From: a virus
Reading direction: 5' to 3' (one strand)
DNA: 64,000 nt
IMG/VR virus record: IMGVR_UViG_3300042484_000833
Coordinates: 17,896-81,895 of that record
The number at the start of each line of letters is the position of its first letter. Within the stretch, counting starts at the first letter, position 1. The position numbers and the translations under genes were made by a program. Shown here piece by piece: positions 3,459-57,846 of the stretch. The notes under the pieces are model-generated. The model did no database searches and was not told where the DNA came from. It saw nothing but the letters and a program-made list of their open reading frames with translations.

Positions 3459-3485
3459 TTGGTTTCACTCTCCACCAGTATGTTG

Positions 3486-3493
3486 TATTTATT
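3486..3493 (-). promoter_or_regulatory. Putative T4-type late promoter (AATAAATA)
   Basis: The minus strand reads AATAAATA, one base from the T4 late consensus TATAAATA, 27 nt before the ATG at 3458. The predicted start of transcription is near 3480, followed by a TGGAGAG ribosome site. The box overlaps the stop codon of the upstream fibre gene. Such boxes also occur by chance in AT-rich DNA. Confidence 0.5.
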
Positions 3494-35615: not shown

Positions 35616-35917
35616 TGGCCGCTACTTACACAAGTTCGAGTCCTTGGTTTAATACTTCGGTGATTCAAAATTATCTTGGAATCTTGTCTATTAGACCAGT
35701 TAGCTCGGAGCCAGATGATTTTCTTTATACTATCGAACCTCAGTATTCTCACAGGCCTGATCTATTGGCCTATGACCTATATGGCACATCTAAACTGTGG
35801 TGGGTATTCATACAACGTAATCTTGACGTACTTCAAGATCCAATATATGATTTTATTCCAGGAGTAGAAATCTATATTCCTAAACGCTCAGGACTTTCGA
35901 AAGTGTTAGGAGTCTAA
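35615..35917 (+). CDS. 53: Baseplate wedge subunit gp53-like
   Basis: The segment YDLYGTSKLWWVFIQRNLDV followed by DPIYDFIPGVEIYIPKRSGL matches the gp53 / LysM-like baseplate domain found in wedge proteins. At 100 aa it is half the length of T4 gp53 (196 aa) and consists of little more than this domain. The ATG overlaps the preceding stop by one base (TAATG), with GGAGG 9 nt upstream, so translation is coupled. It is the first wedge component in the rightward operon. Confidence 0.88.
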   Translation: MAATYTSSSPWFNTSVIQNYLGILSIRPVSSEPDDFLYTIEPQYSHRPDLLAYDLYGTSKLWWVFIQRNLDVLQDPIYDFIPGVEIYIPKRSGLSKVLGV

Positions 35918-39947: not shown

Positions 39948-39955
39948 ATACTACT

Positions 39956-40399
39956 ATGACAGCCAATCAGAAATTATTTAACAAGGTAGTACTAAAAGGC
40001 CCTGCCGGCAGAGCAACTGTGCCTGGATCTAAAACCTACAAAGGTTTTAGCAGTGTCAGCGGCGACAGCAAGAGCTATAGCCTGTATGATCTAGCCTTAA
40101 TTAAACAAGATATTATCAATCACTTTCATATTCGTCAAGGCGAACGGTTAGAAAATCCTACGTTCGGCACTATCATATGGGATGTATTATTTGAACCGTT
40201 GACGGAAGATCTAAAACAACTTATTGTAAAAAACGTTGAACAGATTATCAATTACGATCCTCGGGTCAATGCCAACAATGTAATTGTTACAACCTACGAA
40301 AGCGGCCTACAAATAGAATGTACGCTGACTTATCTTCCTTATAACATACAAGAATCTCTCCAATTTAAATTTGACCAAGCAAATGGTCTAATCGGCTAA
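39956..40399 (+). CDS. 25: Baseplate wedge subunit gp25-like
   Basis: I take the start at ATG 39956 (MTANQKLFNKVVLKG), with GAGGAG 11 nt upstream overlapping the spike stop. An upstream in-frame ATG at 39881 lies inside the spike gene and lacks a ribosome site. The family segment is YSLYDLALIKQDIINHFHIR, then QGERLENPTFGTIIWDVLFE and DPRVNANNVIVTTYESGL, the gp25 / GpW lysozyme-like wedge fold shared with type VI TssE. Length 147 aa, versus 132 in T4. It lies between spike and gp6, the usual order of wedge genes. Confidence 0.93.
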   Translation: MTANQKLFNKVVLKGPAGRATVPGSKTYKGFSSVSGDSKSYSLYDLALIKQDIINHFHIRQGERLENPTFGTIIWDVLFEPLTEDLKQLIVKNVEQIINYDPRVNANNVIVTTYESGLQIECTLTYLPYNIQESLQFKFDQANGLIG

Positions 40400-40450: not shown

Positions 40451-43400
40451 ATGTCAGCAACAGATAGACAAAATAGATTACTAGTAGCAGAAGACTGGAA
40501 ACGTATATACCAGAGCTTCCGTAATGCCGATTTCCAAAGCTACGACTTTGAAAATCTACGCCGCGTGATGATTAGTTATATCCGCGAGAATTATCCAGAA
40601 GATTTCAACGACTATATTGAATCAAGCGAATACCTTGCCCTAATCGACATGATTGCGTTCTTGGGCCAAAGCATAGCTTTCCGTGTTGATTTAAATGCCC
40701 GTGAAAACTTCCTAGAGCTAGCAGAACGACGCGAAAGTGTGTTGCGTCTAGCACGTTTATTAAGTTATAAAACAAAACGTAATATTGCTGCATCGGGCTT
40801 GTTGAAATTTAATACTGTAAGTACTACTCAGTCAGTGTATGACAGCAACGGCAGAAATCTAGCCAATCAGGTTGTTGCGTGGAATGATCCAGCTAACACC
40901 AATTGGTACGACCAGTTTATTAAAGTTATCAATGCGGCCTTGCCGGCAACTAGACAGTATGGAAATCCAGACGCAAAACAAGAAATTTATGGTATTCCCA
41001 CTGAACAATATAGATTTCAAACAGTGAGCACTTCTATACCGGTATACTCTTTTAACAAACCAGTAGATGGCCGCAGTATGAATTTTGAAATTGTAAGTAC
41101 AACGTTTGCTGGTAAAACTGAAATATATGAAGAACCTCCTAGCATAGGAAACAGTTTGTCATTCTTGTACAGAGACAGCGGCCGCGGCAACGGCAGTAGC
41201 AATACAGGATTCTTTTTAAGATTTACTCAAGGTACATTGAATCAAGGCAGCTTTACACTGAGCCAGCCAGCCACAGACGAATCAGTTGACCTAGACGCAG
41301 TTAACATTAACAACAGTGATGTGTGGTTATATAGACTAGATAACAACGGAACGGAAAGTGAGTATTGGGCACAAGTCCCTAGTTTCGAAGGCAATAATGT
41401 TATCTATAATAGTCTTAACAAAAGCATCCGAAACATATATGGTGTAGTAACTAGAGCCAGTGACAGAGTTAGTTTAGTGTTCAGTGACGGTGTGTTTGGT
41501 AATTTACCACAAGGCACATTTAGAACATACTACAGAACCAGCAACGGACTAAACTATACTGTTAATCCTAAAGATATTAAGAATGTTAGCATAGATATTC
41601 CTTATATTAGTCAAGTTGGCCAAGTTGAAACATTGAGTGTGACATTAAGTTTACAATCAAGCGTGTCTAATAGTGGCCCAACCGAAACTAACGACAGTAT
41701 TAAGACTAATGCTCCTGCCACGTACTATACACAAAATAGAATGATTACAGGAGAAGATTACAATATTAGTCCTCTAAGTGTTAATCAGCAAGTTGTAAAA
41801 GTAAAAGCAGTTAACCGCAGTTCAAGCGGTATCAGTCGATATTTTGACCTAGTAGACCCAACAGGCAAGTACAGCAAAACTAACTTGTTTGCGGATGACG
41901 GTTTAATATATAAACAAGAATTCTCTGACAGTTTTAGATTTAAGTACGCCACTAGAACAGACATAGAGGCAATTCTTTATAATGAATTGTCAGACGTTTT
42001 AAAATCATCTAATCTTAAAAATTTTTACTACGATAATTTTGAAAAAATTCCTGTAAGTTTATTAGAAGTTAAATGGTACAATAGAACATTGGATGTTAAT
42101 CAGAGTACTGGCTACATTGAAGATACTGTATCGGGTACAAAGCAAAAAGTTTCTTCTTATACTGGTACCCTGTTACGATTTTTTACAGTGGGTGCCTTGA
42201 TAAAATTTACAGCGCCCGCCGGTTATTACTTTGATAAAACAAAAAACAATGAGTTGGTGCCTGGCTCTGCCACAGTATTGAATTCTGCTACATTCATTTG
42301 GACAAAAGCAGTATCAATAGCGGGAGATGGAACAGCCAATGGTACTGGACTGTTGTTTGATAAATCAGGACCTATTGTGTTAAATGATATAGTTCCAAAT
42401 ACTGCAGTATTATCTGAAATCATTCCTGCTTGGAGAACCAGCATAGAATCCAGTACTATAACTGCCATGGTAGATTTGGTGTTTGGAAATAAAAAATTCG
42501 GTCTTCGATATGATATTGAAACAAGATTATGGAAAATTATTACAGAGACAAATCTTAACACTAGCGAAGTCTTTAGCCTTGGTAGGCAAGGCGACGCCAC
42601 TAATTCTAAAACGGACAGTAGTTGGCTAGTGCTATTCACGACAGATACAGAATACTATACAGTGACTAGTAGATTAACACGTTACATATTTGAAAGTGCC
42701 CAACAGGTAAGATTCTTCTTTGATTCTAGCGATAAAATTTATGATACTCGTAATAATACTGTTGTTAAAGATGTAATCAAAGTTTTAAATATTAATACCA
42801 ACCCGTTGTCTCCAGGCGGCACAACTCCATTTACCTATGATAGAGATTGGGAAATTACTGAAGAGTTTCGAGGTCTAGATGGTTATGTTGATACTAAAAA
42901 AATTCAAGTCACATTCAATGACAGCGACGATGATGGCGTAGTTGATGATCCTACATTATTTGATCAATTAGTAATACCTAACACATATATTGTATTAGAA
43001 AAATATGTTGTAGCACAAGGTCAAGAAGATTATCGTTATATTTCTAATGATAGTGACATTGTTGTTGTTGTTAACACACAAAATGATATAGTAATTTCTC
43101 AATACCAAGATGGCCAATATTTTTATATTGTAGATATTGACACTGTTAAAATATATGATAAAATTGCTTCTAATTTTATTCCCACTCTTGACTATAAAGT
43201 GTTTGTGGGTAGAGACAAAATTAAATTTCAATATATACATAACGCTGATTACGAGTCACGAATTGATCCAGGATTAACTAATCTTATTGACGTATTTGTA
43301 CTAACCAAGCAATATGACATTGCTTATCGACAATGGTTGTCTGGCGCAGGAACTACTGAACCGTTACCTCCTAGCAGCGATTTCTTGTACAATTTATTAA

Positions 43401-43891
43401 GTCCTGAACTTAATAAAATTAAATCTATCAGCGATGAAATTGTATATCACCCTTCAAAGTACAAGGTTCTTTTTGGATCTAAAGCTACCACAGATTTACA
43501 GGCAACATTTAAAGTTGTAAAAAATTCTGAAATAGTAATCAGTGATAATGATATTAAAACTAGAGTGCTAGTGGCAATATTAGAATTCTTTGCTTTAGAA
43601 AATTGGGAATTTGGAGATAATTTCTATTTTAGTGAATTATCAACTTACGTCATGAATAAAGTGGCTCCTTATATTGTAAATTTTGTTATAGTGCCTAAAC
43701 AAAGTACTTTAAGTTTTGGCGGGTTGTACGAAATCCGTAGCGAAAAAGATCAAATTTTTATCAACGGCGCCGGCATAGATGACATAGAAATTATTTCTAC
43801 AATAACCGCAAGCAACATCAAGAGTGCCGTAATTCAAGCGAATCAAACAGCAGTGAGTCAGCAAACAATAACAAGTTTAGGGAGTAACTGA
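40451..43891 (+). CDS. 6: Baseplate wedge subunit gp6-like (1146 aa)
   Basis: Family features are clear in the first 150 residues: DWKRIYQSFRNADFQSYDFE, RRVMISYIRENYPEDFNDYI, then ESSEYLALIDMIAFLGQSIA, FRVDLNARENFLELAERRES and VLRLARLLSYKTKRN. SDGVFGNLPQGTFRTYYRTS and GEDYNISPLSVNQQVVKVKA follow, typical of gp6/gpJ-type wedge proteins. At 1146 aa it is much longer than T4 gp6 (660 aa); extra material lies after about residue 500 and looks beta-rich, suggesting added peripheral domains. gp6 dimers tie the wedges into the baseplate ring. It has a late box upstream and shares a TGATG stop/start junction with the giant gene. Confidence 0.93.
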   Translation: MSATDRQNRLLVAEDWKRIYQSFRNADFQSYDFENLRRVMISYIRENYPEDFNDYIESSEYLALIDMIAFLGQSIAFRVDLNARENFLELAERRESVLRLARLLSYKTKRNIAASGLLKFNTVSTTQSVYDSNGRNLANQVVAWNDPANTNWYDQFIKVINAALPATRQYGNPDAKQEIYGIPTEQYRFQTVSTSIPVYSFNKPVDGRSMNFEIVSTTFAGKTEIYEEPPSIGNSLSFLYRDSGRGNGSSNTGFFLRFTQGTLNQGSFTLSQPATDESVDLDAVNINNSDVWLYRLDNNGTESEYWAQVPSFEGNNVIYNSLNKSIRNIYGVVTRASDRVSLVFSDGVFGNLPQGTFRTYYRTSNGLNYTVNPKDIKNVSIDIPYISQVGQVETLSVTLSLQSSVSNSGPTETNDSIKTNAPATYYTQNRMITGEDYNISPLSVNQQVVKVKAVNRSSSGISRYFDLVDPTGKYSKTNLFADDGLIYKQEFSDSFRFKYATRTDIEAILYNELSDVLKSSNLKNFYYDNFEKIPVSLLEVKWYNRTLDVNQSTGYIEDTVSGTKQKVSSYTGTLLRFFTVGALIKFTAPAGYYFDKTKNNELVPGSATVLNSATFIWTKAVSIAGDGTANGTGLLFDKSGPIVLNDIVPNTAVLSEIIPAWRTSIESSTITAMVDLVFGNKKFGLRYDIETRLWKIITETNLNTSEVFSLGRQGDATNSKTDSSWLVLFTTDTEYYTVTSRLTRYIFESAQQVRFFFDSSDKIYDTRNNTVVKDVIKVLNINTNPLSPGGTTPFTYDRDWEITEEFRGLDGYVDTKKIQVTFNDSDDDGVVDDPTLFDQLVIPNTYIVLEKYVVAQGQEDYRYISNDSDIVVVVNTQNDIVISQYQDGQYFYIVDIDTVKIYDKIASNFIPTLDYKVFVGRDKIKFQYIHNADYESRIDPGLTNLIDVFVLTKQYDIAYRQWLSGAGTTEPLPPSSDFLYNLLSPELNKIKSISDEIVYHPSKYKVLFGSKATTDLQATFKVVKNSEIVISDNDIKTRVLVAILEFFALENWEFGDNFYFSELSTYVMNKVAPYIVNFVIVPKQSTLSFGGLYEIRSEKDQIFINGAGIDDIEIISTITASNIKSAVIQANQTAVSQQTITSLGSN

Positions 43892-46800
43892 TGGCCTATA
43901 GCAACGATCAAAACGAGCCAAAGGTACCTATTTCAAATGTAGAAAAGCGTTCGAGCGCTGACTTATTACCGAGGTTTTATAGAACACCCGGTAACAAGAA
44001 GTTTTTACAAGCAACAGTAGATCAGCTAATTCAACCTGGAACAGTTAAAAAACTTAACGGTTACGTTGGAAGACAAACTGCCAAGGCTGTTGTTAGTTCA
44101 GATACATTTCTCGAAGCTGCTGATCAAACTAGACAAAATTATCAACTAGAACCTGCTGCAGTCATTCAAGACTATCTTGGAAATACTACATTTTTTAAAG
44201 ATTACATTGATCATATTAACCATATCAGTGTGTTTGATGGTGTCGTTGACAATCATAGTAGATTGAATCGTGAAGAATTTTATAGCTGGAATCCAAATAT
44301 CTGCTGGGACAAATTTGTAAATTACCAACAGTATTACTGGCTTCCTTTTGGTCCTCGTCCTATTGAAGTGTTGGGTAATGAATTAGAAATTATCAGTACG
44401 TACTCTGTTACCGGAGTTGACGAGACTGATAATGTTGCGTATTTGTTTAATCCCGAAGGCCCGTTAGAGGGGTTGATTAGAAATCCTAAGATACGACTAT
44501 TTAGAGGTCAAACTTATATTTTTGATATTAACGTTGTTGGACATCCGTTTAGTATTAAAACTCAGCGCACTGCAGGCGACCTTTATAGATATACAAAAGG
44601 AGTCGATGCCTATGCTGTTGAAAACGGTAAAATTACCTTTACCGTTCCAGTGGATGCACCTGATGTATTATTTTATGTAAGTGAAAACGCAGTTGATACC
44701 GGCGGCGTATTTCACGTATTGGACATTACTGAAAATACTGCAATTAATCTAACAACTGATTTTGTTGGAAAAAAGGAATACGTTATTCCTAACGGTACCG
44801 CAGAAGGTTTGCGAATCAGTAACGGAATGAAATTAAGTTTTGGAGGACAAGTGACTCCAGAAGAATATGCCAACGATTTTTGGTATGTAGAAGGCGTTGG
44901 AACAGCCATACGATTAGTTAGGGATAAAGATCTAGAAGTTAGAACATCATTTAATGAAGAAACTAGTATCCTTTTTGATGACAATCCATTCGATCAGTTG
45001 CCATTTGGCGACGCTAGTACATTACCTAGCACTAAAGATTATATAACAATCAATAGATCGAGCTCTGACAAAAACCCCTGGAGTAGATATAATAGATGGT
45101 TCCATCAAGATGTTATTATTGCTAGTGCTGCTGCCAATAATGTTCAATCAGGTTTGGATCAAACACAAAGGGCAATTCGTCCTATTATTGAATTTAATGC
45201 AGGCATTAAATTACACAATCATGGTCTTAGCTCTAAACAAAATATTGATGTAATTGATAATTTTACAAAGGATGTTTTTAGTACCATCGAAGGTAGTTTA
45301 GGTTATAATGTAGATGGAATTGATCTTGCTGACGCTATGCGAGTGATTTTCACAAAAGATACAGATATACTTGTTAGAAACAAAATATACCGAGTAAACT
45401 TTATCGATGTAGTTGTCCCTAGTCGACAATTATCTTTTAACGGAACTACATCGGTTAATATTACTAATAATACTTTTACCTTTGCTAGCGAACACGGCTT
45501 GTCGTCTAGTAACCGTGTCACTTACTTAAACAATGGCTTTGATACATTACCAGGATTAACAAACAGACAAGTTTATTATGTGAAAGTTATAGATTCATTC
45601 ACCATTGAATTACACACAAATACTGCGTTAACAAAACAGGTAGACATATTTTCAGCAGTCGATGCTGTTTATAAATTTGAAGTCTTTTCAGGAAGTCGTA
45701 GGCAAATAACATTAACAGAAGAATCGGACGCTGTTGCCATACTATACGAATCTGTAACAATAAATTATGGTACTCAAGAAACACTCACATCTAGTATCAA
45801 TGGCAATCAAGGTCAGACCTATTGGTTTACAGGCACTACTTGGAAACTAGCTCAAATAAAAACAAAGGTAAACCAAGCTCCGTTGTTTGATTTATTTGAT
45901 AAAAATCAAATTAGTTTCACTGACACCTCAGTTTATGACGGCTCTACTTTTGAAGGTAACAAGATTTTTAGTTATAAAGTAGGAACAGGTACAGTTGATA
46001 GTGAGTTGAACTTTCCGTTAACATATCAGAATATTAATAATATCGGTGATATTGTTTTTGAATTTAATCTATTAACAGACAAATTTGCCTATAAAGAAAT
46101 AACCAATGTACTATACAAAGATACTGCAACCGGCTATTTAAAAATATCAAAAGATATCAACAGGGCAGCTTACGAAAACGGATGGACTACAAGTTTAATT
46201 GAAGATTCACAGCCTGTGGTCAGAGTGTTTAAGGATCATATATATAACGGAACAACTATCCCTTTTCCGATTGATGTTTTTGATAATAAAAACGATCTAA
46301 CAGATTTAGAAGTTCGAGTTTATATTAATGGAAATCGATTAGCAAAAGATCAATACACTGTCACTACTAGTGTAGTTAGGAAACAAGTAGAGTTGACTAC
46401 AGCAGTGACAACTACAGATGTTGTAACACTACGTTGCTTTGCTAAACAAGCAAAAAATTCTAATGGTTATTATGAACTTCCAATTAGTTTACAGAACAAT
46501 CCGTTAAATCACAATGTAGAACAGTTTACTCTAGGTCAAGTAATAGATCATGTAGGATCTATTGTTGACAATATTACAACATTTACTGGCACTTATCCAG
46601 GTTACGGTAATCTTAGAGATATCGGCAATTTGAGTCCTTACGGCGTCCGCTTTGTACAGCATAGCGGACCGATGAATCTTAGTTTATATCATATTGGATC
46701 TAAAAGTTCTAACGTAGTAAAAGCCATAGACATGGCAAGGAATGACTACGGCAAATTTAAACGAGCATTCATAGTTGCTGCAACCGAAAGCGGAATAGAT

Positions 46801-49800
46801 ACAGATCCACGCCGACATGTCGATTTTGTTTTACAGATGATAAACAAGGACAGACCAAAAACAAGCCCATATTACCTGTCAGATATGTTTGGTTACACAG
46901 CTTCGAATAGAATAGAATATACTGTTTTAGATTCAAGAATAAAAACATATCCGTTAACTAGCAAGTTTGGATTATCAACACTATCTAATAAAAGTGTCAA
47001 CATTTATCTAAACGGAGACCAACTTGTACACGGCCGAGATTACGTATTTGGCGATGACGTATTTTTCGAACTGTTAATTGACATCGTACAAGACGACCTT
47101 ATTGAAGCATACGAGTATGAAACTACTGACGGATGTTTTTGCCCTGCCACTCCTACTAAGCTAGGGTTATATCCTAAATTTGAACCTAAGATTTATCTAG
47201 ACGATACTTACGCTGAACCTACTCGAGTAATACAAGGACACGATGGTAGCATCACTATTGCCTTTGACGATTACAGAGATGACTTAATTTTAGAATTAGA
47301 AACTAGAATTTTTAATAACATAAAATGCGAGTATAATTCAGACATTTTTAATATTCACGATTATATTCCAGGCTACAGCAGAACAACTCTGTATTCATTT
47401 AAAGAATTTAATAGAATACTATCTAAGTATTTCTTCCAGTGGACAACTAACATTCAAGAAGATTATACAAAACATATTGGGTACGATCAAACTGATAGTT
47501 TTACCTATAACTATCGAGGCAACTTCACACCTGACAATCAGGATGTTCCCGCAGCATGGCGCGGAATTTATACCTGGTTACTAGATACAATTCGCCCGCA
47601 TAGTCATCCATGGGAATGTTTAGGATTTAGTATTGAACCATCTTGGTGGCAAGATGTATATGGTCCAGCGCCATATACAAGTGATAACTTAATTCTATGG
47701 GACGACATTAAGGAGGGTATTATTCGACAACCTGGCGTGCCTGTTAGACGGGATGTTAAATTTGCTAAGTCCTCGCTAGCTTATGGATTACCAGTCAACG
47801 ACCAGGGCGTATTAATAAGCCCTAAAGATTCGGGAATGGTATCTGGTACTATACGATCAGGCGACAGCGGCTATTTTGAATTTGGAGATCAAGCCACAGT
47901 TGAATCAGCATGGAGACGCAGTAGCTATTATGCGTTTGCTCTTATTGAAACATGTCTGCTAATGCAGCCTAACAGTGTGTTAGGTCGATGTTTAGATAGA
48001 AGTAGAATTGTAAAAAATTTAAATAACCAATTAGTATATTCTGAAACTGGTTTACGTCTACGATTAGAAGATATTGTTATTCCATCAACTAGCAACAGAA
48101 ATGTAGATACCAGAGCTTATACTTGCGGCCTAATCAATTATCTAGTAGATTACCTATCAGGCGATAATGTCTTACGACTAGACGAATACCAGTTAGATTT
48201 AACATCTCTAACAAATAAAATAACAACACGTATAGGATCGTTTACCAGCCAGCCCAAATATAAAATTTTATTAGACAGTAAAACTCCTAGCAGTACAGGC
48301 GGTGTGTTTGTGCCAGAAGAAAATTATTATGTAGATTTAAATATTTCTAGTGCCATAACAAAAGTTGTTTATAGCGGAGTAATAATAACAAAATTTGCTG
48401 ACGGATTTGAAGTAAAAGGTTATAATTTTGACAATCCGTATTTCACTTATTATCCATCTAGACAAGATGACAGGGTAATAAATGTTGGAGGCATTAGTGA
48501 AGGTTACATTACTTGGAATTCTGGCCAAATTTATGCTGCTGGTAAGATTGTTAAAAATAACAATCAGTATTACAGAGTAAAAACTAATCATACAAGTGTT
48601 GAAACATTCGACAGTCAATACTATGCTAGACTAGCTGAGTTGCCGGTTGTAGGCGGCAGAGACGCTATTTTAAGAAAAACTTGGGATTACGATGAGCCGC
48701 AAACTGTGGCATACGGTACTAAGATAACAACTATACAAGCTATGGTTGATTTTTTACAAGGCTATGGAGCCTATCTAGAACAACAAGGTTTTGTTTTCGA
48801 CGACTTCAACAACGAGCTTGCCGTTATTACCAATTGGGAAACTAGTGTAAAAGAATTTCTATTCTGGTCAACTCAAAATTGGGCCGCAGGTGCAGTTATA
48901 AGTTTAAGCCCAGCCGCTAACCGATTAATTTTTAAATCTAATATTGCTGCCGTAGATGACCTTACAGATCCATTTTACGGATATAGTATTTTTAGAGTTG
49001 ATGGTCAAAAATTAGATCCTGAGTTTATAACAACTTATAGAAAAGACGGCGAATTTACGTTACAGCCGCAAGATACAAATCACGGAATATTTGGAGCTAC
49101 TTTATTTCTTGTACAAAAAGAACATATTGTAGTATTAGATAATACAACGTTATTCAATGACACAGTGTATGATCCTGAAGCAGGATACAGACAAGAAAGA
49201 GTTAAGGTACTAGGTTACGTTACTAGCAACTGGAATGGCAGTTTTGAAATTCCAGGTTTTATCTACGACAGAGCTATTGTTAATGCGTGGACACCTTGGA
49301 CTGATTTTGCGTTAGGCGACATTGCTAAACACAAAGAGTTTTATTATAGTGCTAAAAGTTTCTTAGTAGGAACAGAAACATTTAATGATGATAGCTGGGT
49401 ATTATTAACAGAAAAACCCAAAGCAGAACTATTACCTAACTGGGATTATAAAGCTGAGACTTTTGCTGACTTTTATGATTTAGATACTGACAATTTAGAT
49501 AGCGGACAGCAAAAAATTGCTCAACACTTAATTGGATATCAGAAACGTCAGTACCTTGAAAACATTATTCAAAATGATGTAAGCCAGTACAAGTTTTATC
49601 AAGGCATGATTATTGAAAAAGGCACACAGAATGTTTTAAACAAACTGTTTGATGTGCTAAGTGCCGATGGCATGGAAAGTTTAACATTCGACGAAGAGTG
49701 GGCATTCCGTGTTGGAGAATATGGCGCAGTGGATACATTTGACGAAGTTGAATTTAAATTAGACGAAAGAGAATTTAAAACTAATCCTCAACCGATTGAG

Positions 49801-52800
49801 TTAGTAAATTCTATCGATCCGTTGCTAACAGATTTTGTCTATAGACAACGCCCTGTTGATGTTTATGTTAAGCCATATAACTACACTAATGATATTTGGC
49901 CAGTTAAAACTACCGGCACATATTTAAGAACTCCGGGATATATACGCTCGGAAGATGTAAAACTTAGCATAGATAATTTACAAGATTTAATCACTGTTGA
50001 CATTTCGTCTTTTAAAGAAGGTGATTATGTATGGTGTGCGTTTGAAAATCGAGACTGGAATGTTTATAGATTTAGTAAAACACCTTTTAAGATTAACAAT
50101 ATTACATACTCGAACAAAGTAATAACTATTGTTTGTGATAAAGTAATAACGTTAACTGTTGGAGATGTAGTAGGGATAGAGAATAGTGTCTCTGTTCAAG
50201 GATTCCACATAGTTGCTTCAGTTTCTCTTAATACATTTACTGTATCTAAAGAAGTACAAGGTTGGCAAACTTGGACTGACCAAGATACAGTGTTAAGTTA
50301 TCAATTTAATTTACATCGAGTTGAAAACATCGATAACGCGAATTCTATTATTCCACGTTATATTAAACCTAACGAATTAATTTGGGCAGACAACAACGGA
50401 CACAGTAAATGGTCAACGTATCAATACGCTCCTGTTTATAGTCAAGGTACAATTTTAAATATCGACGTTAGGACAAATTTAAACTTTGGTTTAGCAACAG
50501 CAATTACTGACGACGGAAACGTGGCTGCTGTAACAGATATCGACGGCGTTACAATTTATGAAAAAAGTTCTTCGGATAATGTATGGTTAAGTAAACAACG
50601 CATTTTGACTACCGCTGTATTGTCGCCTGGCGAGTTTGGTTCTCTAATCAAATTTAGTAAAGACGGTCGCTGGTTGGCAATTTCAGCACCATTGGCAGAT
50701 ATTGGATTTACAAATCAAGGGTGTGTATTCTTATACGAACAAGGCACCGACGGACAATTTGATTTATCAAATACTATTGTTAGTCCTGTACCTTCAGCTG
50801 GCGAAAAATTTGGTATAAATCTTGCTTTTGGAAGAAAACCTAACCCTACTGTTTTGTATAGCGCACTAACAGGCACATACACTGAAAACGGTAACGGAGC
50901 AGTATGGACAGTTACACGTATCGGATCTTCTTATGTATTACTAGTTTCCGACAGAGGCTTGCGATATAAAGCCGGCGAAACTATTGTCATTCCAGGATCT
51001 CAATTGGGCGGCACAAATGTTGACAACGATTTAACCATCATTATCAATACAGTAGATTCTGTCACTGGATCTATAGAAAACTTTACTTACACTGGTTCGG
51101 GCCTAGGCGATGTTTATATCTTGGCAATAACAGCAGAAGGTTATAACAGCAATCAGGGTAGAGTTTACACTTATAAATTTGACAGTATTACAGTATGGAA
51201 TCAATTTGTAACATTGTCAACTAGTACGATTTCGGGTGACTACTTTGGATACGATTTAGCAATTGACACTAATTTAACAATCGTAGCGTCTGCTCCATCA
51301 GCAGATACCGAATCTGGTAAAGTATTTGTATATTCTTATACTGGATCTAACTATTCCTTGGTTAAGACATTAGTAGGTAACATAGTTGACAACGCTGAAA
51401 GATTTGGCGAAAGCGTATCGATAACAACAGACGGTGACTATATTGCGGTTGGTAGCACATTAATGAATGTCAGCAACAAGAAAGATGTAGGGCAAATCTT
51501 AATCTATAAGCAATCAGATTCTACATATACTACGGGCACGCCTTATCAAGTTATTGATAGTCCCCGTAACGAAGTTAACGAACGTTATGGTACCGACATT
51601 GAATTTATGAATAATAAAACACTAGTAGTGTTTTCTAAAAATGGTAACATAGAAAATATCACGGTGTTTGATGAATTATCTACTACATTCGATAACAGTA
51701 ATTTACAACTAATCGATGTAGCAGTGGATGTAGGCCGTATTGATATTTTTGATATGTACAACACTAAATTTGTCTACGGCGAGAGTCTAGATAATATCAG
51801 TGTTATTAATTCTGGTTACGGTGAAGAAATTGCTGTGGGCAATAATACTGTCTTGGTAAGTGCTATTAAAGAAACTAGTCAAGGTTTTACAAATTCAGGA
51901 AACGTTTATTCTTATATCAAGCCCGGAGAAAAATTTAGCTGGATGCCTATTCACACGCAAGTTGATAGCGTAGACATAGGAAAAATTAAAAAAGTTTATC
52001 TCTATAATACAGTAACTAACGAGCTAGTAAAATATTTAGACGTCATTGATCCTTTACAAGGTAAGATCCCAGGAGTAGCAGATCAAGAAATCAGATATAA
52101 AACTTTCTACGATCCTGCTATCTATTCTGTTGGAACATCGTCAGTTAATGTTGATGACGGTATGAATTGGACTACGGTACAAGTTGGTCAACTATGGTGG
52201 GATCTAACACGAGCTAAATTCTTAGATACTCAAAGCGGCGATGTAATTTACAGAACAAGTAGCTGGAATACACTGTACGAAACAGCAAGTATAGACGTTT
52301 ACGAATGGGTAGAAACTTCGTTATTGCCTTCAGCTTGGATTAAGCAATCAAGCACTGATGCCGGAATAGCCAGAGGTATCAGCGGCACACCAAAATACAG
52401 CGACGAAGTTTATAGTGTTAAAAAACGTTACGACTCTGTTAGTAAAACTTTTAAAGAAACTTATTTTTATTGGGTAAAAGGAAAAAAAGATGCTCCTAAC
52501 GTTTCAGGCAGAACGTTGAATAGTTATGATGTAGCACAGTTAATTGCTGATCCTGCTGGATATGGATATAGCTTTATTGCTTTCACAGGCACAAATAGTT
52601 TCGCATTAGTGAATTGCGAAAAATATTTACAATCTAATAATGTTGCGTTAAGTGTACAGTATTGGTTAAGCGATAACAAAACTAGCAACTATCATAGTCA
52701 GTGGAAATTATTGAGTACTAATAGAAACACTATTATACCTACAGCTATTGAAGAAAAGTGGTTTGACAGTTTAATTGGCAAGGACTCCAATGACAGAGTT

Positions 52801-55800
52801 ATACCTGATACTAGCTTGCCGTTAAAGAACCGACACGGTATTGAATTTAAACCTAGACAAAGTATGTTTATGAACAGAGTCGAGGCTCTTAAAGTTTTTG
52901 TTGAAAGTGTAAATGCTTCTATTAAAAATGAACTTATTGCCGATGATTATGACCTTGCCGAATTAGATACTTACGAACCTATACCAAGCGCAGTGTCGGG
53001 ATTGTGGGATATTGCTATAGACACAGATTCAGAATTACGATTTATTCCTACTACACTACTTCAAACAGCAGTGTTAAAACCTATAATTATCAATGGTAGA
53101 ATTACGGGTATCACAATCGTTTCATCAGGATACGGATATGGCACACTTAGAGAATACCCTAAGACTAATACACTAGATCCTGATAGATGGTATGGTCCTA
53201 ATGTAAAAATTACAGGTAGCGGTATAAACGCTAAAATTAAATCTATAATAGATGCTCAAGGCAAAATTGTTGACTATGAAATAGAAAATAGCGGTGAGGG
53301 ATATACAGCGAACACCGCCATTATTGTTCGAGATGTATCGGTACTCGTTAGAAGCGACAGCGAGTCGTTAGATTTATGGAGCATCTATTCATGGAGTGCT
53401 CGCATCGAACAATGGTCTAGAATAAAAAGTCAAAGCTATGATGTTAGAAAATATTGGCAGTATTTAGATTGGTACGCCGATGAATACAATCAATTTGTAA
53501 AGATAGACTATCTTGTAGAGAACACTTACGAATTAACAACTACCTATATGGATGTTGGCAGCATTGCCAAAGTTAGGAACGTGGGCCGCGGCGGCTGGCT
53601 GCTACTACTAAAAGTTGCTGATACACAAACAATAGATTACACACAAAATTTCACAGTTATTGGCAGACAGAATGGTACAATAAAATTCTTAGAATCACTG
53701 TATCAATTCAAAGCTAGTACACTGGGATTCGATGGTCCGTTGTTTGATGCTGATATTTTTGATAACAGTCCTACGACAGAATTGCGAATAATTCTTGAAA
53801 CAATACGAGACAAAATCCTAATCGATGAATATCGCACATCCTACTTAAAAGTATTTTTTGCCTGTGTTCGATATGCACTAAGCGAACAGACGTTTATCGA
53901 CTGGGCGTTTAAAACTAGCTTTGTCAAGAGTCAACATAATGTAGGTGAGCTAAAACAAAAAGTCACTTACAACAGTGACAATTTAGAATTTTTTGAAGAA
54001 TACATTAAAGAAGTTAAACCCTATAGAACTAAAGTACGTGAGTACGTTAGTAACTACACTTCACTAGATTATTCTCAAAGTTCAGTATCTGATTTTGATT
54101 TACTACCTGTGGTTAACGATAACAGAAGTGTTGCGCCTTTGTTGGTTCAAGTAAATGATAACGCTGAAATTGTTACAGATTTTAGTGAAATATTAACATA
54201 TCCATGGCGCCATTGGCACGATACCGTGGGCTTTGAAATTACTTCTATAGAAATAGTAGATGGCGGCTCCGGATATATTACCAAGCCGATAGTAAAAATT
54301 TACGAAGAATATCAAGGTATAGTTTATAAATTATCCAATAGTGTGGCAGCAGAAGCAAAAGCCTACATATCAAACGGACGAGTGAATAGAATAGAATTAG
54401 TAAGCAGCGGCACACGCTGGATACGAGCTCCTAGAATTGAAATCATAGGAGGTCTAGCAACTACCGGATCTGCTGCCACCGCAGTGGCAATTATAGGCCA
54501 GGGTGTGGTTAGAAGTAACTATGTTAAAATTAAATTTGATAGAACTAGCAAAGTTTATGAAATTACAGAACTTATATCAGTTGAAACGTTCTCTGGTACA
54601 GGTTCACGAACTCAATATTTGTTAAAATGGGCACCTGATATAAAGGTAGGTGAAAGTTATGTAACTATTGATAATGCTGAAGTACTCAGGGATGATTATA
54701 CATTAGAAGTTGTCAAATCTGTAACTAAAGGTTATACTAGTTACAGTGGACAAATTACTTTTAAAAACGCACCTCCTGCCAACAGCGCAACACCAGTTAA
54801 CATTCGTATTGAGTACAAAAAAGATTTTGTACACTTAAATGCTCCTGATAGGATTAATTTTTACTATGATCCACAAACGGGACAGCTGGGTAAAGATCTA
54901 GCACAGCTAATGACTGGCATTGACTACGGTGGTGTAGAAATCACTGGCCTCGGGTTTGGCGTTAATGCCGGCTGGGATGCACTGCCGTGGTTTAGTGAAC
55001 CGTGGGATACTATTGATCCTGAATTTGAAGATTATATTGTAACTGTTAGTTCGATAACATATTCTTATCGTATGCCATATGTTCCAGAGGAAAATCAACA
55101 GATCAATATCTATATTAGTCGATATACTGGCACAAGCTATGAACCTTCTATTAGAATAGATGATCCTAACTATGCTACAATTTTACAAACAAACAATGAC
55201 GCATTAATGCTATCCTTTACAGGAGATGGTGAAATTGATATTATCAATTTGCCAATTACAGTAGCGTTATCTGTAGATGATAGATTGATATTCCGTAAGG
55301 ATACTAGCGATGGTAGTTACGGAGCACGTCCAGACGAATATGATACAAAATTAAGTGGCGGCAATTTAGCCTATACCAGTGCTACGGGATTGGCAGCAGA
55401 CGACATAATTCTAGACGGGGACGACTTAGTAAGCGCAAATACTAGTTACGCTCCTGAAGAAGTTGTTCCTGGGCAAGTTATGGACACTGTGGCAATCAAA
55501 GTCTATCACAGACCAAGCGGCGGCTGTCCGAACATAATGTTTAATCATCATCGTGGCAACGCATCTACTACAGATTTTAAAATAGGTCAATATTTTCCTA
55601 ACGATAGTTCGGTAATAGTAAAAGTTGATAATCTAATTAAAACTTTAAGCGTGGATTACACTATTGATTATCAAAACAACAATATTGTTTTTAACACTGC
55701 TCCGAGTCAGGGTGTTGCGATTGATATTTTAAGTATCAGTTTCAACTCTGCCAACATATTAGATTTAGATTATTTTATTTCTGATGGTGTTACCACTGAG

Positions 55801-57846
55801 TATTTGACAAAAGCCAATTGGTTGCCTACAATAGCATCAACAGTTCTTGTTAATGGCGCAGTCGTTGCCTATGAACTATTCAGCACAGACGATCAGTACA
55901 CTGATGTAGTAGGTCAAACATGGAGGAGTCGAGCAGGGATTAGATTTGAAGCAGTACCTCCAGCAGGCGCACTAATTAATTACATTATTGATACATCAGT
56001 TGCAGACCAAACGTCTAGTGTTGTAAAATTAGAAAATTTAACTTACACAAGTGTTGATACATATCCTCTGGGAAATATCATAGGCTTAAATTCTCCACTG
56101 GATCAGAATGTGTTGGTTAAAACTAATCAAACAATATTAAAACCTGCAAGTGCTAATTATTTTATTATTGAAAATTCTATGCTTGAATACTCTTTAAGAG
56201 ATTACAAGTATCTAGGAGTAACTATAAATCCTGGTAACGTTAAAGTCTATAAAGATAATACATTACTGGCATATGGCACAGAATATATATTGGATTTTGA
56301 CTATACTGGAATTGTGTATGGCATTGACTCAACATCTTTAACAATCACCGGCGGCACAGGCTATGTTGTAGGTGATGTATTGGATGCTGTTGGCGGCACA
56401 GTTTCACCTACTGGCAGCTTGGCAAAATTCGAAGTGGTATTTGTAAATGGGTCGGGCAAGATTCAACTATTAGAAATTGTTGACGCAGGATCATATGATG
56501 TGCCGCCTACTAACCCAATTAACCTATCGGGTGGCTCGGGCATTGGCGCAGCGTTATCTGCTAATTTTGAAATTATTCAAGACCAGCCAAACATAACTGT
56601 TAAATTAAAACCCGATGCTTACACTGACGGATCCGCATTAACAGTGTTGGTAGACTCTAACGCAGACTATATTATAAATTCTGATAATTCTATAACATTT
56701 AATAATTCATATCCTTCTAATACACCTTTTGAAATCATAAGTTTTTATAACCACAATATTTTAAAAGTTGAAAGAACTATTGACGAGTTAATCCCTGCTG
56801 CTTCTTTAACAAACGGAACTACAGAATATTACGAACTTGTTAGCAAATTGGGCGGCAACTTTAAATTACGTAACACAGCAGTGTCCGGTGATTTTGTATG
56901 GGTAATTAAAAACGGAGAGCTGTTAATGCATGGCATTGATTATTATCTTCAAGATGATTTTATTACTGTTAAGTTAGCAGACTCATTGTTTAGTTCTGAT
57001 GTGTTACAGGTAATGGCCTTTACAAATGTAGTAGTCCATGAAAGTTTTGCTTATATGCAATTCAAAGATATCTTAAATCGTGTACACTATAAGCGTCTGA
57101 ACAAATCAAAATCTACACTACTTGCTAGGGATTTGTTCCAGTTTGATAAAGAAATTCATGTGGATGATGCTAGTACATTAGACAATCCGATGCCTAGCAG
57201 AAACGTGCCTGGTATTATAGAAATTAACGGAGAACGCATCGAGTACTTTGTAAAAATTGGAAATGTGCTAAGTCAGTTACACAGGGGAACGTTGGGTACT
57301 GGTATGCCTAATTACCACAGCGCAGACAGTTTAGTTCAAGGCCTTGGCGCAAGCGAAACTATTCCGTATAAAGATGAAAGCATCGTTGTAACTCATACTG
57401 TTTCTATAGGCGACCTTGGCATAGTAACATTACCTTATATTCCTAGCATAAATGATATGGAAGTGTTTATAGCAGGGTATAGATTGAAAAAACACCAATA
57501 TAGTGTTTACTCTAATTTAAATTATCCATATAGCACAGAAGGTGATGTGGTGTTTAATGCTGAGTTCGAAATTAACGGCACTGTCCAATTACAATTAAAT
57601 GTGACAGATCTTACAGTCAAAGGGCTATTTGTTCCGGGAGTTAAGATAACTGTGGTAAAACGTCAGGGTAGATTATGGAATGATATAGGTCAACGATTGG
57701 CAAAATCTAACAATCCTATTGCTAACTTCCTTAAAGAAACTGGCACAAACTGGGTAGAAACATACCTAGATAAATATGAAGATAGAGTCTTGGGCGGTGA
57801 CGGAAACCCACTCTCAGCTGGTGACGGCGAACCTTTGGAATACTAA
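43891..57846 (+). CDS. Giant baseplate wedge-position protein (4651 aa) with FG-GAP propeller
   Basis: One uninterrupted frame of about 14 kb lies immediately after gp6 (TGATG junction), where T4 has gene 7 (1032 aa). The N-terminus (RSSADLLPRFYRTPGNKKF, then PAAVIQDYLGNTTFFKDYID and REEFYSWNPNICWDKFVNYQ) is a segment I associate with large baseplate proteins of aquatic T4-like phages. Residues about 198-278 resemble a cupredoxin fold (LFRGQTYIFDINVVGHPFSI, then ITFTVPVDAPDVLFYVSEN) but lack copper-ligand Cys/Met. Residues about 2199-2690 show seven FG-GAP-type repeats, for example FGYDLAIDTNLTIVASAP. GSGY beta modules lie near 3078, 3131 and 3456. The C-terminal 1200 residues are beta domains, ending with HRGTLGTGMP and a terminal GGDGNPLSAGDG. 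The role, baseplate wedge scaffold plus adhesin, is inferred. Confidence 0.88.
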   Translation: MAYSNDQNEPKVPISNVEKRSSADLLPRFYRTPGNKKFLQATVDQLIQPGTVKKLNGYVGRQTAKAVVSSDTFLEAADQTRQNYQLEPAAVIQDYLGNTTFFKDYIDHINHISVFDGVVDNHSRLNREEFYSWNPNICWDKFVNYQQYYWLPFGPRPIEVLGNELEIISTYSVTGVDETDNVAYLFNPEGPLEGLIRNPKIRLFRGQTYIFDINVVGHPFSIKTQRTAGDLYRYTKGVDAYAVENGKITFTVPVDAPDVLFYVSENAVDTGGVFHVLDITENTAINLTTDFVGKKEYVIPNGTAEGLRISNGMKLSFGGQVTPEEYANDFWYVEGVGTAIRLVRDKDLEVRTSFNEETSILFDDNPFDQLPFGDASTLPSTKDYITINRSSSDKNPWSRYNRWFHQDVIIASAAANNVQSGLDQTQRAIRPIIEFNAGIKLHNHGLSSKQNIDVIDNFTKDVFSTIEGSLGYNVDGIDLADAMRVIFTKDTDILVRNKIYRVNFIDVVVPSRQLSFNGTTSVNITNNTFTFASEHGLSSSNRVTYLNNGFDTLPGLTNRQVYYVKVIDSFTIELHTNTALTKQVDIFSAVDAVYKFEVFSGSRRQITLTEESDAVAILYESVTINYGTQETLTSSINGNQGQTYWFTGTTWKLAQIKTKVNQAPLFDLFDKNQISFTDTSVYDGSTFEGNKIFSYKVGTGTVDSELNFPLTYQNINNIGDIVFEFNLLTDKFAYKEITNVLYKDTATGYLKISKDINRAAYENGWTTSLIEDSQPVVRVFKDHIYNGTTIPFPIDVFDNKNDLTDLEVRVYINGNRLAKDQYTVTTSVVRKQVELTTAVTTTDVVTLRCFAKQAKNSNGYYELPISLQNNPLNHNVEQFTLGQVIDHVGSIVDNITTFTGTYPGYGNLRDIGNLSPYGVRFVQHSGPMNLSLYHIGSKSSNVVKAIDMARNDYGKFKRAFIVAATESGIDTDPRRHVDFVLQMINKDRPKTSPYYLSDMFGYTASNRIEYTVLDSRIKTYPLTSKFGLSTLSNKSVNIYLNGDQLVHGRDYVFGDDVFFELLIDIVQDDLIEAYEYETTDGCFCPATPTKLGLYPKFEPKIYLDDTYAEPTRVIQGHDGSITIAFDDYRDDLILELETRIFNNIKCEYNSDIFNIHDYIPGYSRTTLYSFKEFNRILSKYFFQWTTNIQEDYTKHIGYDQTDSFTYNYRGNFTPDNQDVPAAWRGIYTWLLDTIRPHSHPWECLGFSIEPSWWQDVYGPAPYTSDNLILWDDIKEGIIRQPGVPVRRDVKFAKSSLAYGLPVNDQGVLISPKDSGMVSGTIRSGDSGYFEFGDQATVESAWRRSSYYAFALIETCLLMQPNSVLGRCLDRSRIVKNLNNQLVYSETGLRLRLEDIVIPSTSNRNVDTRAYTCGLINYLVDYLSGDNVLRLDEYQLDLTSLTNKITTRIGSFTSQPKYKILLDSKTPSSTGGVFVPEENYYVDLNISSAITKVVYSGVIITKFADGFEVKGYNFDNPYFTYYPSRQDDRVINVGGISEGYITWNSGQIYAAGKIVKNNNQYYRVKTNHTSVETFDSQYYARLAELPVVGGRDAILRKTWDYDEPQTVAYGTKITTIQAMVDFLQGYGAYLEQQGFVFDDFNNELAVITNWETSVKEFLFWSTQNWAAGAVISLSPAANRLIFKSNIAAVDDLTDPFYGYSIFRVDGQKLDPEFITTYRKDGEFTLQPQDTNHGIFGATLFLVQKEHIVVLDNTTLFNDTVYDPEAGYRQERVKVLGYVTSNWNGSFEIPGFIYDRAIVNAWTPWTDFALGDIAKHKEFYYSAKSFLVGTETFNDDSWVLLTEKPKAELLPNWDYKAETFADFYDLDTDNLDSGQQKIAQHLIGYQKRQYLENIIQNDVSQYKFYQGMIIEKGTQNVLNKLFDVLSADGMESLTFDEEWAFRVGEYGAVDTFDEVEFKLDEREFKTNPQPIELVNSIDPLLTDFVYRQRPVDVYVKPYNYTNDIWPVKTTGTYLRTPGYIRSEDVKLSIDNLQDLITVDISSFKEGDYVWCAFENRDWNVYRFSKTPFKINNITYSNKVITIVCDKVITLTVGDVVGIENSVSVQGFHIVASVSLNTFTVSKEVQGWQTWTDQDTVLSYQFNLHRVENIDNANSIIPRYIKPNELIWADNNGHSKWSTYQYAPVYSQGTILNIDVRTNLNFGLATAITDDGNVAAVTDIDGVTIYEKSSSDNVWLSKQRILTTAVLSPGEFGSLIKFSKDGRWLAISAPLADIGFTNQGCVFLYEQGTDGQFDLSNTIVSPVPSAGEKFGINLAFGRKPNPTVLYSALTGTYTENGNGAVWTVTRIGSSYVLLVSDRGLRYKAGETIVIPGSQLGGTNVDNDLTIIINTVDSVTGSIENFTYTGSGLGDVYILAITAEGYNSNQGRVYTYKFDSITVWNQFVTLSTSTISGDYFGYDLAIDTNLTIVASAPSADTESGKVFVYSYTGSNYSLVKTLVGNIVDNAERFGESVSITTDGDYIAVGSTLMNVSNKKDVGQILIYKQSDSTYTTGTPYQVIDSPRNEVNERYGTDIEFMNNKTLVVFSKNGNIENITVFDELSTTFDNSNLQLIDVAVDVGRIDIFDMYNTKFVYGESLDNISVINSGYGEEIAVGNNTVLVSAIKETSQGFTNSGNVYSYIKPGEKFSWMPIHTQVDSVDIGKIKKVYLYNTVTNELVKYLDVIDPLQGKIPGVADQEIRYKTFYDPAIYSVGTSSVNVDDGMNWTTVQVGQLWWDLTRAKFLDTQSGDVIYRTSSWNTLYETASIDVYEWVETSLLPSAWIKQSSTDAGIARGISGTPKYSDEVYSVKKRYDSVSKTFKETYFYWVKGKKDAPNVSGRTLNSYDVAQLIADPAGYGYSFIAFTGTNSFALVNCEKYLQSNNVALSVQYWLSDNKTSNYHSQWKLLSTNRNTIIPTAIEEKWFDSLIGKDSNDRVIPDTSLPLKNRHGIEFKPRQSMFMNRVEALKVFVESVNASIKNELIADDYDLAELDTYEPIPSAVSGLWDIAIDTDSELRFIPTTLLQTAVLKPIIINGRITGITIVSSGYGYGTLREYPKTNTLDPDRWYGPNVKITGSGINAKIKSIIDAQGKIVDYEIENSGEGYTANTAIIVRDVSVLVRSDSESLDLWSIYSWSARIEQWSRIKSQSYDVRKYWQYLDWYADEYNQFVKIDYLVENTYELTTTYMDVGSIAKVRNVGRGGWLLLLKVADTQTIDYTQNFTVIGRQNGTIKFLESLYQFKASTLGFDGPLFDADIFDNSPTTELRIILETIRDKILIDEYRTSYLKVFFACVRYALSEQTFIDWAFKTSFVKSQHNVGELKQKVTYNSDNLEFFEEYIKEVKPYRTKVREYVSNYTSLDYSQSSVSDFDLLPVVNDNRSVAPLLVQVNDNAEIVTDFSEILTYPWRHWHDTVGFEITSIEIVDGGSGYITKPIVKIYEEYQGIVYKLSNSVAAEAKAYISNGRVNRIELVSSGTRWIRAPRIEIIGGLATTGSAATAVAIIGQGVVRSNYVKIKFDRTSKVYEITELISVETFSGTGSRTQYLLKWAPDIKVGESYVTIDNAEVLRDDYTLEVVKSVTKGYTSYSGQITFKNAPPANSATPVNIRIEYKKDFVHLNAPDRINFYYDPQTGQLGKDLAQLMTGIDYGGVEITGLGFGVNAGWDALPWFSEPWDTIDPEFEDYIVTVSSITYSYRMPYVPEENQQINIYISRYTGTSYEPSIRIDDPNYATILQTNNDALMLSFTGDGEIDIINLPITVALSVDDRLIFRKDTSDGSYGARPDEYDTKLSGGNLAYTSATGLAADDIILDGDDLVSANTSYAPEEVVPGQVMDTVAIKVYHRPSGGCPNIMFNHHRGNASTTDFKIGQYFPNDSSVIVKVDNLIKTLSVDYTIDYQNNNIVFNTAPSQGVAIDILSISFNSANILDLDYFISDGVTTEYLTKANWLPTIASTVLVNGAVVAYELFSTDDQYTDVVGQTWRSRAGIRFEAVPPAGALINYIIDTSVADQTSSVVKLENLTYTSVDTYPLGNIIGLNSPLDQNVLVKTNQTILKPASANYFIIENSMLEYSLRDYKYLGVTINPGNVKVYKDNTLLAYGTEYILDFDYTGIVYGIDSTSLTITGGTGYVVGDVLDAVGGTVSPTGSLAKFEVVFVNGSGKIQLLEIVDAGSYDVPPTNPINLSGGSGIGAALSANFEIIQDQPNITVKLKPDAYTDGSALTVLVDSNADYIINSDNSITFNNSYPSNTPFEIISFYNHNILKVERTIDELIPAASLTNGTTEYYELVSKLGGNFKLRNTAVSGDFVWVIKNGELLMHGIDYYLQDDFITVKLADSLFSSDVLQVMAFTNVVVHESFAYMQFKDILNRVHYKRLNKSKSTLLARDLFQFDKEIHVDDASTLDNPMPSRNVPGIIEINGERIEYFVKIGNVLSQLHRGTLGTGMPNYHSADSLVQGLGASETIPYKDESIVVTHTVSIGDLGIVTLPYIPSINDMEVFIAGYRLKKHQYSVYSNLNYPYSTEGDVVFNAEFEINGTVQLQLNVTDLTVKGLFVPGVKITVVKRQGRLWNDIGQRLAKSNNPIANFLKETGTNWVETYLDKYEDRVLGGDGNPLSAGDGEPLEY

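Follow-up and report, generated by a model that had tools for sequence, protein, structure and literature searches.

The baseplate wedge protein gp7 of phage T4 contacts gp6, gp8, gp9 and gp10; when the baseplate opens, domain A of gp7 is described as swinging outward (PMC3004832). A (gp6)2-gp7 core is described for phages XM1 and T4, and in XM1 gp17 the part that forms the core bundle is a helix-turn-helix (PMC10457771). Giant forms of gp7 are already annotated in cyanophages, where a protein annotated as 'baseplate wedge initiator' reaches 3007 aa in S-SSM7 and 3045 aa in its S-CAM3 counterpart, and proteins as long as 7,694 aa have been reported for huge phages (PMC7162821). A jumbo-phage giant under the name gp7 was not found in the accessible text of the literature searched, which was mostly open-access and included PMC6892783 and PMC13282480. 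Searches also returned no atomic structure of a baseplate from the PHROG 10938 family, to which the protein described here belongs; a tail structure at ~25 Å is described for phage phAPEC6 (PMC7247149). We analyzed a window of 64,000 nucleotides from an 81,895-bp IMG/VR viral record (IMGVR_UViG_3300042484_000833, positions 17,896 to 81,895), in which a gene for a protein of 4651 aa directly follows a gp6-type gene. We propose, with a probability of roughly 0.68, that this giant takes the gp7-type place in the (gp6)2-gp7 baseplate wedge and has grown to ~0.5 MDa.

The giant gene and its baseplate neighbors

The original prediction for this DNA described an uninterrupted frame of about 14 kb, joined to gp6 by a TGATG junction, whose product would reach roughly 0.5 MDa, compared with 1032 residues for T4 gp7. 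All of these statements were confirmed. The frame comprises 4651 codons from an ATG start without an internal stop, an event with a chance of ~1e-97 for random codons under a uniform codon model. The gp6 stop codon TGA (43889-43891) shares bases with the ATG of the giant at 43891, and the sequence AGGGAG (43879-43884) lies 6 bases 5' of that ATG. The predicted mass of the product is 522 kDa (pI 4.8), and six copies would amount to 3.13 MDa, the number of six per baseplate being taken by analogy only. Comparison with a related copy (locus L006) over 4199 of the 4651 codons, where the L006 copy is cut off, gave a dN/dS of 0.048 for the whole alignment. The values of 16 individual segments all lay within 0.008-0.1, and the lowest, 0.008, belongs to core segment s6. 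The last part of the giant aligned through to its end with relatives other than L006, at 41-100% identity. Judged from these substitution ratios, the giant frame is under strong purifying selection. An identical giant (100% over the compared residues) is present on a 383-kb contig (L025, L071), so the source of the window is very likely a jumbo phage.

The genes preceding the giant encode proteins similar to known hub and wedge components (Table 1). The product of 39881..40399, which we call gp25-like, is given as the ORF listed, and its real start may lie further downstream; the name gp53 for 35615..35917 follows by analogy the annotation of Vibrio phage 2.275.O. The assignment of the upstream gene as gp6 agrees with the fact that phrog_219 also contains T4 gp6. 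In profile comparisons, the window gp6 matched cyanophage gp6 with a probability of 98.8 and cyanophage gp6 matched T4 gp6 with 100, compared with 47.9 for the direct comparison of window and T4 gp6.

The placement of the giant at the gp7 position of the operon, another element of the original prediction, held across the family: a gp6 HMM match was located no more than 400 nt upstream of the giant in 130 of the 131 loci with enough upstream sequence, with loci from one contig counted separately. The sole exception is Salicola phage SCTP-2, with gp6 at 231 kb and the giant at 128-139 kb. There, a 3096-aa propeller-repeat protein (phrog_8401) is encoded 5' of the giant (L082, 8609-17899 and 17977-29400, respectively), and gp6 lies ~90 kb away. 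We considered whether this neighbor was a giant gp6 and rejected the idea, the true gp6 being elsewhere. The phrog_10938 profile (3324 positions) is described as 'virion structural protein' under the category 'head and packaging', which would make the giant a head or packaging protein. With baseplate hub and wedge genes as its neighbors and gp6 upstream at nearly every locus, we consider such a function extremely improbable, and the category is probably wrong for phrog_10938 because the genes of the family adjoin baseplate genes.

The window also contains two more very large ORFs on the minus strand, 3492-10670 and 10744-16152 (2392 and 1802 aa), with matches to tail-fiber PHROGs, and a 949-aa ORF without a PHROG match that adjoins the portal gene (24513-27362, minus strand).

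The claim that the giant is a virion protein holds for a relative, PA5oct gp355, which is marked 'ESI-MS/MS' in its NC_071039 record. In the structural proteome of phAPEC6, the 382-kDa hypothetical protein gp245 is reported with 17 unique peptides and 7.6% coverage, and it is listed beside gp244, a baseplate wedge protein with 21 peptides (PMC7247149). Likewise, CBB_236 is listed as 'Structural protein' (21, 7.72%) beside the wedge protein CBB_237, and in the accessible text of the table of T4 homologs for phage CBB, the morphogenesis rows give gp6, gp25 and gp53 without gp7 (PMC5259590). Judged by size and gene order, we infer that phAPEC6 gp245 and CBB_236 are orthologs of the giant. For Atu_ph07, 131 virion proteins are reported, the majority from three clusters, one of which (CDS 170-215) spans the position of the giant, gp180 (PMC6102473). 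The RaK2 protein ORF070 is not named in the accessible text of PMC3622015.

Table 1. Coordinates of the giant gene, its segments and the neighboring baseplate genes in the window. Residue numbers refer to the giant.
Feature	Coordinates	Strand	Remarks
gp53-like wedge protein	35615..35917	+	phrog_7145 1e-26 'baseplate wedge subunit'
gp5-like hub/tail lysozyme	38379..39947	+	phrog_13211 4.6e-57, phrog_430
gp25-like wedge protein	39881..40399	+	phrog_261 3e-19, phrog_43 2.5e-14 'baseplate wedge subunit'
gp6-type baseplate wedge protein	40451..43891	+	directly upstream of the giant; phrog_10646 1e-294, phrog_219 3e-17
Giant gp7-position baseplate protein	43891..57846	+	4651 aa, PHROG 10938 family
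Core s1	43918..44346	+	residues 10-152
Insert 153-379	44347..45027	+	~163-298 common to cyanophage tail proteins
Core s2	45028..45414	+	residues 380-508
Insert 509-611	45415..45723	+	repeat domain recurring in a second large ORF of this record
Core s3	45724..46905	+	residues 612-1005
Core s4	47134..48525	+	residues 1082-1545
Chitin-binding (CBM5/12)-like insert, 1535-1586	48493..48648	+	Pfam match under the cut-off (E 0.0013); Z up to 7.0 in structure matches
Core s5	48679..49269	+	residues 1597-1793
Second CBM5/12-like insert, 1795-1842	49273..49416	+	VIA Z 8.2 to 8fqc_P1, 45 aligned, rmsd 1.3
Core s6, KGT module	49426..49824	+	residues 1846-1978
K1910-G1911-T1912	49618..49626	+	of 147 rows in the family, 138 have KGT and 9 KGS, counting the window and copies from one contig
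Variable insert 1979-2659	49825..51867	+	includes FG-GAP (propeller-type) repeat 2448-2481
Core s7	51868..52950	+	residues 2660-3020
Insert 3021-3171	52951..53403	+	GxGY-type repeat, common to cyanophage gp7 and gp8
Core s8, FKTSF / EVKPYRTK helices	53404..54180	+	residues 3172-3430
Variable C-terminal part 3431-4651	54181..57843	+	mostly lineage-specific

Conserved core and inserts of the family

The giant matched phrog_10938 over five stretches (E 0, 1052 bits), which places it in that family. A tblastn search with residues 1-870 retrieved 74 phage records, every one below 60% identity; among the matches listed, the cyanophage ones cover only residues ~163-298, an inserted domain. Nine named phages (Atu_ph07, Phosso, PA5oct, SCTP-2, Vibrio 2.275.O, RaK2, PBECO4, RAS14 and XacN1) have a giant of 3138-4555 aa by annotation. 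Scans of viral contigs added 66 loci with the N-terminus and 9 with the C-terminus, and a scan with the middle of the giant found at least 589 relatives; 80 of these were retained. In 54 distinct complete frames, including that of the window, the length from stop to stop ranges from 3331 to 5322 residues with a median of 4674, and the size of the giant is thus typical for the family rather than unique.

Eight conserved segments, s1-s8, account for 2080 of the 4651 residues. The spacers between them vary in length: the widest ranges in the complete frames were 189-1509 residues between s6 and s7 and 527-1787 residues from s8 to the C-terminus, and s1 and s2 are spaced by 8-304 residues. Fewer core segments align in RAS14 and XacN1. 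Beyond residue 3450, only 0-2.3 of the nine named phages align per bin.

Several inserts resemble domains found on other proteins. The FG-GAP_2 match at residues 2448-2481 passes the Pfam cut-off (2.2e-8), and the second chitin-binding-like insert (1795-1842) is a gap in the other nine aligned phages. Two Pfam matches in the piece 53941-54600 were both below the cut-off. An HGL-type repeat at residues 513-589 recurs in the window ORF 3492-10670. GxGY repeats are present at residues 3050-3150 and 3450-3546, as well as in S-SSM7 gp7 and gp8 (L087, L202), and their occurrence in the two S-SSM7 proteins and the jumbo giant suggests that they are mobile insert modules shared among baseplate genes.

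The sugar-binding-like and propeller-type inserts are present in the sequence, and they may have a peripheral role in host binding as adhesins. It is conceivable that the giant is mainly a host-binding fiber or adhesin expressed from the baseplate operon rather than a wedge scaffold, given its chitin-binding-like and FG-GAP domains, its variable C-terminus and the modules that it has in common with tail fibers. We regard this as very improbable, since the order of the eight segments was the same in all 113 frames that hold all of them (the window and same-contig copies counted), the core can be aligned across phages of very different hosts whereas the inserts mostly cannot, and the window has separate tail-fiber genes.

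Comparison with gp7 and the KGT module

The similarity of the giant to T4 gp7 was assessed by profile comparison. Over its whole length, the best hhalign probability against the T4 gp7 family was 0.1%, and none of the segments s1-s8, each compared with T4 gp6, gp7, gp8, gp9 and gp10 and with cyanophage gp6 and gp7, exceeded 5%. Without a significant whole-length match to T4 gp7, the giant is not placed in the phrog_964 sequence family. Pfam detected the gp7 domains V, VI and helical in T4 and did not report them for the giant; for its N-terminus and the s5-s6 region, Pfam reported no family. The giant (P0001), gp6 and the s5-s6 alignment found nothing among PDB sequences. The original prediction had also read the conserved N-terminal segment as gp7-like, and this reading failed, the profile comparison of that segment being without any match.

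Three candidates for individual gp7 elements were rejected. Neither s1 nor the helices of s5 showed positional agreement as the gp7 core bundle in four targets; with both candidates unsuccessful in profile comparison, the N-terminal core-bundle helices of the T4/XM1 type were not located in the giant. The 'EVKPY' sequence of s8 was considered as a P2-type KP motif, which matched exactly in P2 and not in Mu, T4, S-SSM7 or S-CAM3; it was dropped, as 14 of 100 KP-keeping shuffles match P2 too.

The only gp7-like site found in the giant is the KGT module of s6. We compared a 71-column profile of this module with six targets at the gp7 position that have a K/R-G-T: the T4 family, the S-SSM7 family, S-CAM3, P2 gpI, Det7 gp204 and a protein of LR756511. 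These targets overlap in origin, T4 and S-SSM7 gp7 being homologous at the KGT site. By Pfam, the P2 and LR756511 proteins are Tail_P2_I and the Det7 protein is Baseplate_wedge. The best local hit placed K on K (on R in Det7) in all six targets, with low single-target probabilities of 0.2-4.6, and Mu gp48 and an LR756508 ORF, both without KGT, gave unrelated hits only. When the profile was shuffled with KGT kept, none of 300 shuffles reached six targets and one reached five by the exact criterion; by site coverage only, 1/300 reached six. With five targets, none of 300 such shuffles covered all and three covered four. For the first four targets, the site was covered in all of them by 0/100 all-column shuffles and by 1/100 KGT-keeping shuffles (1/300 in a repeat run). 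Among 65 natural 70-column windows of the giant, none matched two or more targets, and the one starting at KGT, without the upstream helix, matched no more than one of four.

A KGT profile merged from 93 rows, anchored on KGT sites by design, matched the module with a score of 24.6, a probability of 58.8 and an E of 9.4e-5 over 24 columns. This score was equaled by none of 400 KGT-keeping shuffles. Out of 161 natural windows, the two that hold KGT scored 24.7 and 23.7, against 13.0 for the best of the rest, and only two of 164 other KG[T/S] sites in the collected frames scored at least as high as that of the window, one of them, in the LR756511 protein, belonging to the profile itself. Because the merged-profile match spans 24 columns, convergence is possible. 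The giant carries, over a short match, the K/R-G-T module that we used as one mark of the gp7-type wedge class (the partners of gp6: T4 gp7, XM1 gp17, P2 gpI and PA0619), a feature that was derived in the present analysis and that Mu gp48 lacks. These profile comparisons argue moderately, short of proof, for homology of the KGT module with gp7-type wedge proteins.

Two regions of the giant were modeled with AlphaFold2. The first model (residues 1082-2110, 82 sequences) had a mean pLDDT of 79.4, with values below 50 at 1857-1870, 1874-1950 and 2005-2015; the 10-residue block from 1882, the most conserved of 103 with a modal frequency of 0.91, had a pLDDT of 41. The second model (2641-3440, 78 sequences; pLDDT 80.1, pTM 0.49) was low at 2932-2940, 3274-3292 and 3346-3402, which includes a conserved block at 3371 (0.84). 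The helices flanking KGT were likewise predicted with low confidence in the monomer. Segments that are conserved yet of low confidence when modeled alone would fit parts that need a complex for folding, for example the (gp6)2-gp7 core; the low KGT confidence could also have other causes, for instance a shallow coevolution signal. In a PDB fold search, the chitin-binding-like inserts of the first model gave the best matches (Z 8.2 to a phage Milano baseplate protein), Ig-like adhesins matched at up to Z 6.4, and the second model had no match above Z 3.0. The top BFVD matches were relatives or unnamed proteins. No T4 gp7 or Tri2 chain was listed by Foldseek and VIA for the two modeled regions, an absence that excludes nothing with the KGT part at pLDDT <50, and the same holds for the lack of a PDB fold match to the core segments in these regions.

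We also searched jumbo-phage records for another protein that could fill the gp7 role. PHROG 10938 was detected in 11/11 jumbo records and in none of the three genomes of T4, ValKK3 and S-SSM7, and the reverse was found for phrog_964, the T4-gp7 family (0/11 and 3/3); at E up to 1, phrog_964 gave a match in 1/14 unrelated genomes. The Tail_P2_I model was silent in all 11 jumbo records and positive for LR756511; its silence alone is weak because it missed T4, ValKK3 and S-SSM7 too. No alternative gp7-type protein was therefore detected in the 11 jumbo records with the phrog_964 and Tail_P2_I models. For other wedge components, T4 gp8 (phrog_977) had one match in the 11 records (Atu_ph07, E 0.008), and the gp10-type phrog_958 matched in 5/11, mostly to short N-terminal stretches of other proteins, with an additional C-terminal hit in PA5oct. 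Matches of phrog_438 (cyanophage gp8) in 5/11 were discarded, as they correspond to the repeat insert of the giant (profile positions 185-301) and not to the gp8 core.

The main competing explanation is that a jumbo-specific baseplate protein unrelated to gp7 occupies the gp7 slot, where it would build an outer shell or platform, with another, unrecognized protein as the true partner of gp6 and with KGT as convergent helix capping. It would account for the missing full-length and fold similarity to T4 gp7, for the SCTP-2 giant lying away from gp6 and for a core of 2080 residues, twice the entire T4 gp7. The positional test of KGT with its controls, the lack of an alternative gp7-type protein in the 11 records with two models, and the KGT module being the most conserved block while of low confidence as a monomer all speak against it, and we consider it unlikely. 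The assignment of the giant as a gp7-type wedge protein in the original prediction thus stands in part: position, virion presence in a relative, the KGT module and the lack of an alternative support it, and whole-length and N-terminal similarity do not. Frame, selection, synteny, modular architecture and KGT similarity were obtained for this reading in the present analysis, and the virion presence of the relative was taken from records.

Proposed role in the baseplate and relation to known systems

As a gp7-type wedge protein, the giant would, by analogy, bind gp6 and be present in six copies per baseplate. The KGT-centered helical module of s6 (~1910) would fold only with two gp6 chains, and the s8 helical module (~3290-3410) may be a second piece packing with gp6. 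The packing of KGT with gp6 would tie the giant chain to the inner baseplate ring, with the giant as the single gp7-type arm per wedge and the remaining core forming the outer wedge. The lineage-specific beta inserts (chitin-binding-like, propeller, GxGY and the long C-terminus) would reach outward, where they would anchor peripheral parts or stand in for them, and they could hold fibers or bind glycans. As T4 gp7 is described to do, the giant may during infection transmit attachment at the periphery to gp6 and contribute to triggering sheath contraction.

The giant is conserved across jumbo phages and has so far been classed as 'virion structural protein' or under 'head and packaging'. If it is a gp7-type wedge protein, it would supply the missing gp6 partner for RaK2-, PA5oct- and Atu_ph07-like phages, and the block 1882-1921 with KGT becomes a concrete target in cryo-EM maps. 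A broader and more tentative idea, which we hold as a possibility below even odds, is that many jumbo phages have consolidated the outer wedge into one chain of ~0.5 MDa. The gp7-type scaffold would have absorbed what gp8 and some of the gp9-gp12 pin network do in T4, by means of swappable inserts between the segments of a fixed eight-segment core, and host range and baseplate size would evolve by 'accordion' growth of one gene.

The closest known proteins are the PHROG 10938 members of other jumbo phages: PA5oct gp355, RaK2 ORF070w, PBECO4 gp538, Atu_ph07 gp180, Phosso 294 and SCTP-2 gp140, annotated with 3326-4555 aa. As in the window, they follow gp6 (SCTP-2 excepted) and hold s1-s8 in order, at 26.7-32.4% identity where tblastn aligns; the window giant differs by its own CBM5/12-like, propeller and GxGY inserts and by its C-terminus. 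The P2 gpI/pyocin R2 Tri2 proteins (Tail_P2_I, PF09684) resemble the giant in having KGT followed by an amphipathic helix, and the P2 gpI gene follows gpJ, the gp6 homolog, as the giant follows gp6. In contrast, P2 gpI has 176 aa, compared with 4651, and the window region stays below the Pfam Tail_P2_I model. T4 gp7 has in common with the giant the operon place and a KG site followed by a helix, without a significant profile match. In Det7, the 284-aa wedge protein gp204, encoded after gp6 (L089, 13685-14539), has by eye a helical N-terminus, RGT and HPAGF, possibly a minimal pattern that is seen in T4 gp7 as well.

The cyanophage giants have the same arrangement as the window giant, being encoded directly 3' of gp6, very large and equipped with a KGT site, and S-SSM7 gp7 has GxGY and HGL-type inserted repeats in common with it. 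A second S-SSM7 ORF of 3001 aa (SSSM7_103; L202, 1651-10656) is also annotated as gp7; it had no hit to the window profile or to phrog_964, and its naming looks doubtful. S-SSM7 gp7 (L087, 17861-26884) differs from the window giant in its detectable T4-gp7 core, and s1-s8 were not detected there: significant matches between the two giants were confined to the repeats, with a weak KGT hit in addition. The hhalign comparison that gave no match for the window giant does recover T4 gp7 in S-SSM7 gp7, where residues 191-221 match T4 728-758 (93.4%) and residues 2364-2461 match T4 811-888 (51%). Given these two separate pieces, the S-SSM7 giant probably represents a gp7 interrupted by ~2100 inserted residues, a parallel for the window giant which indicates that a baseplate scaffold can enlarge several-fold by insertion.
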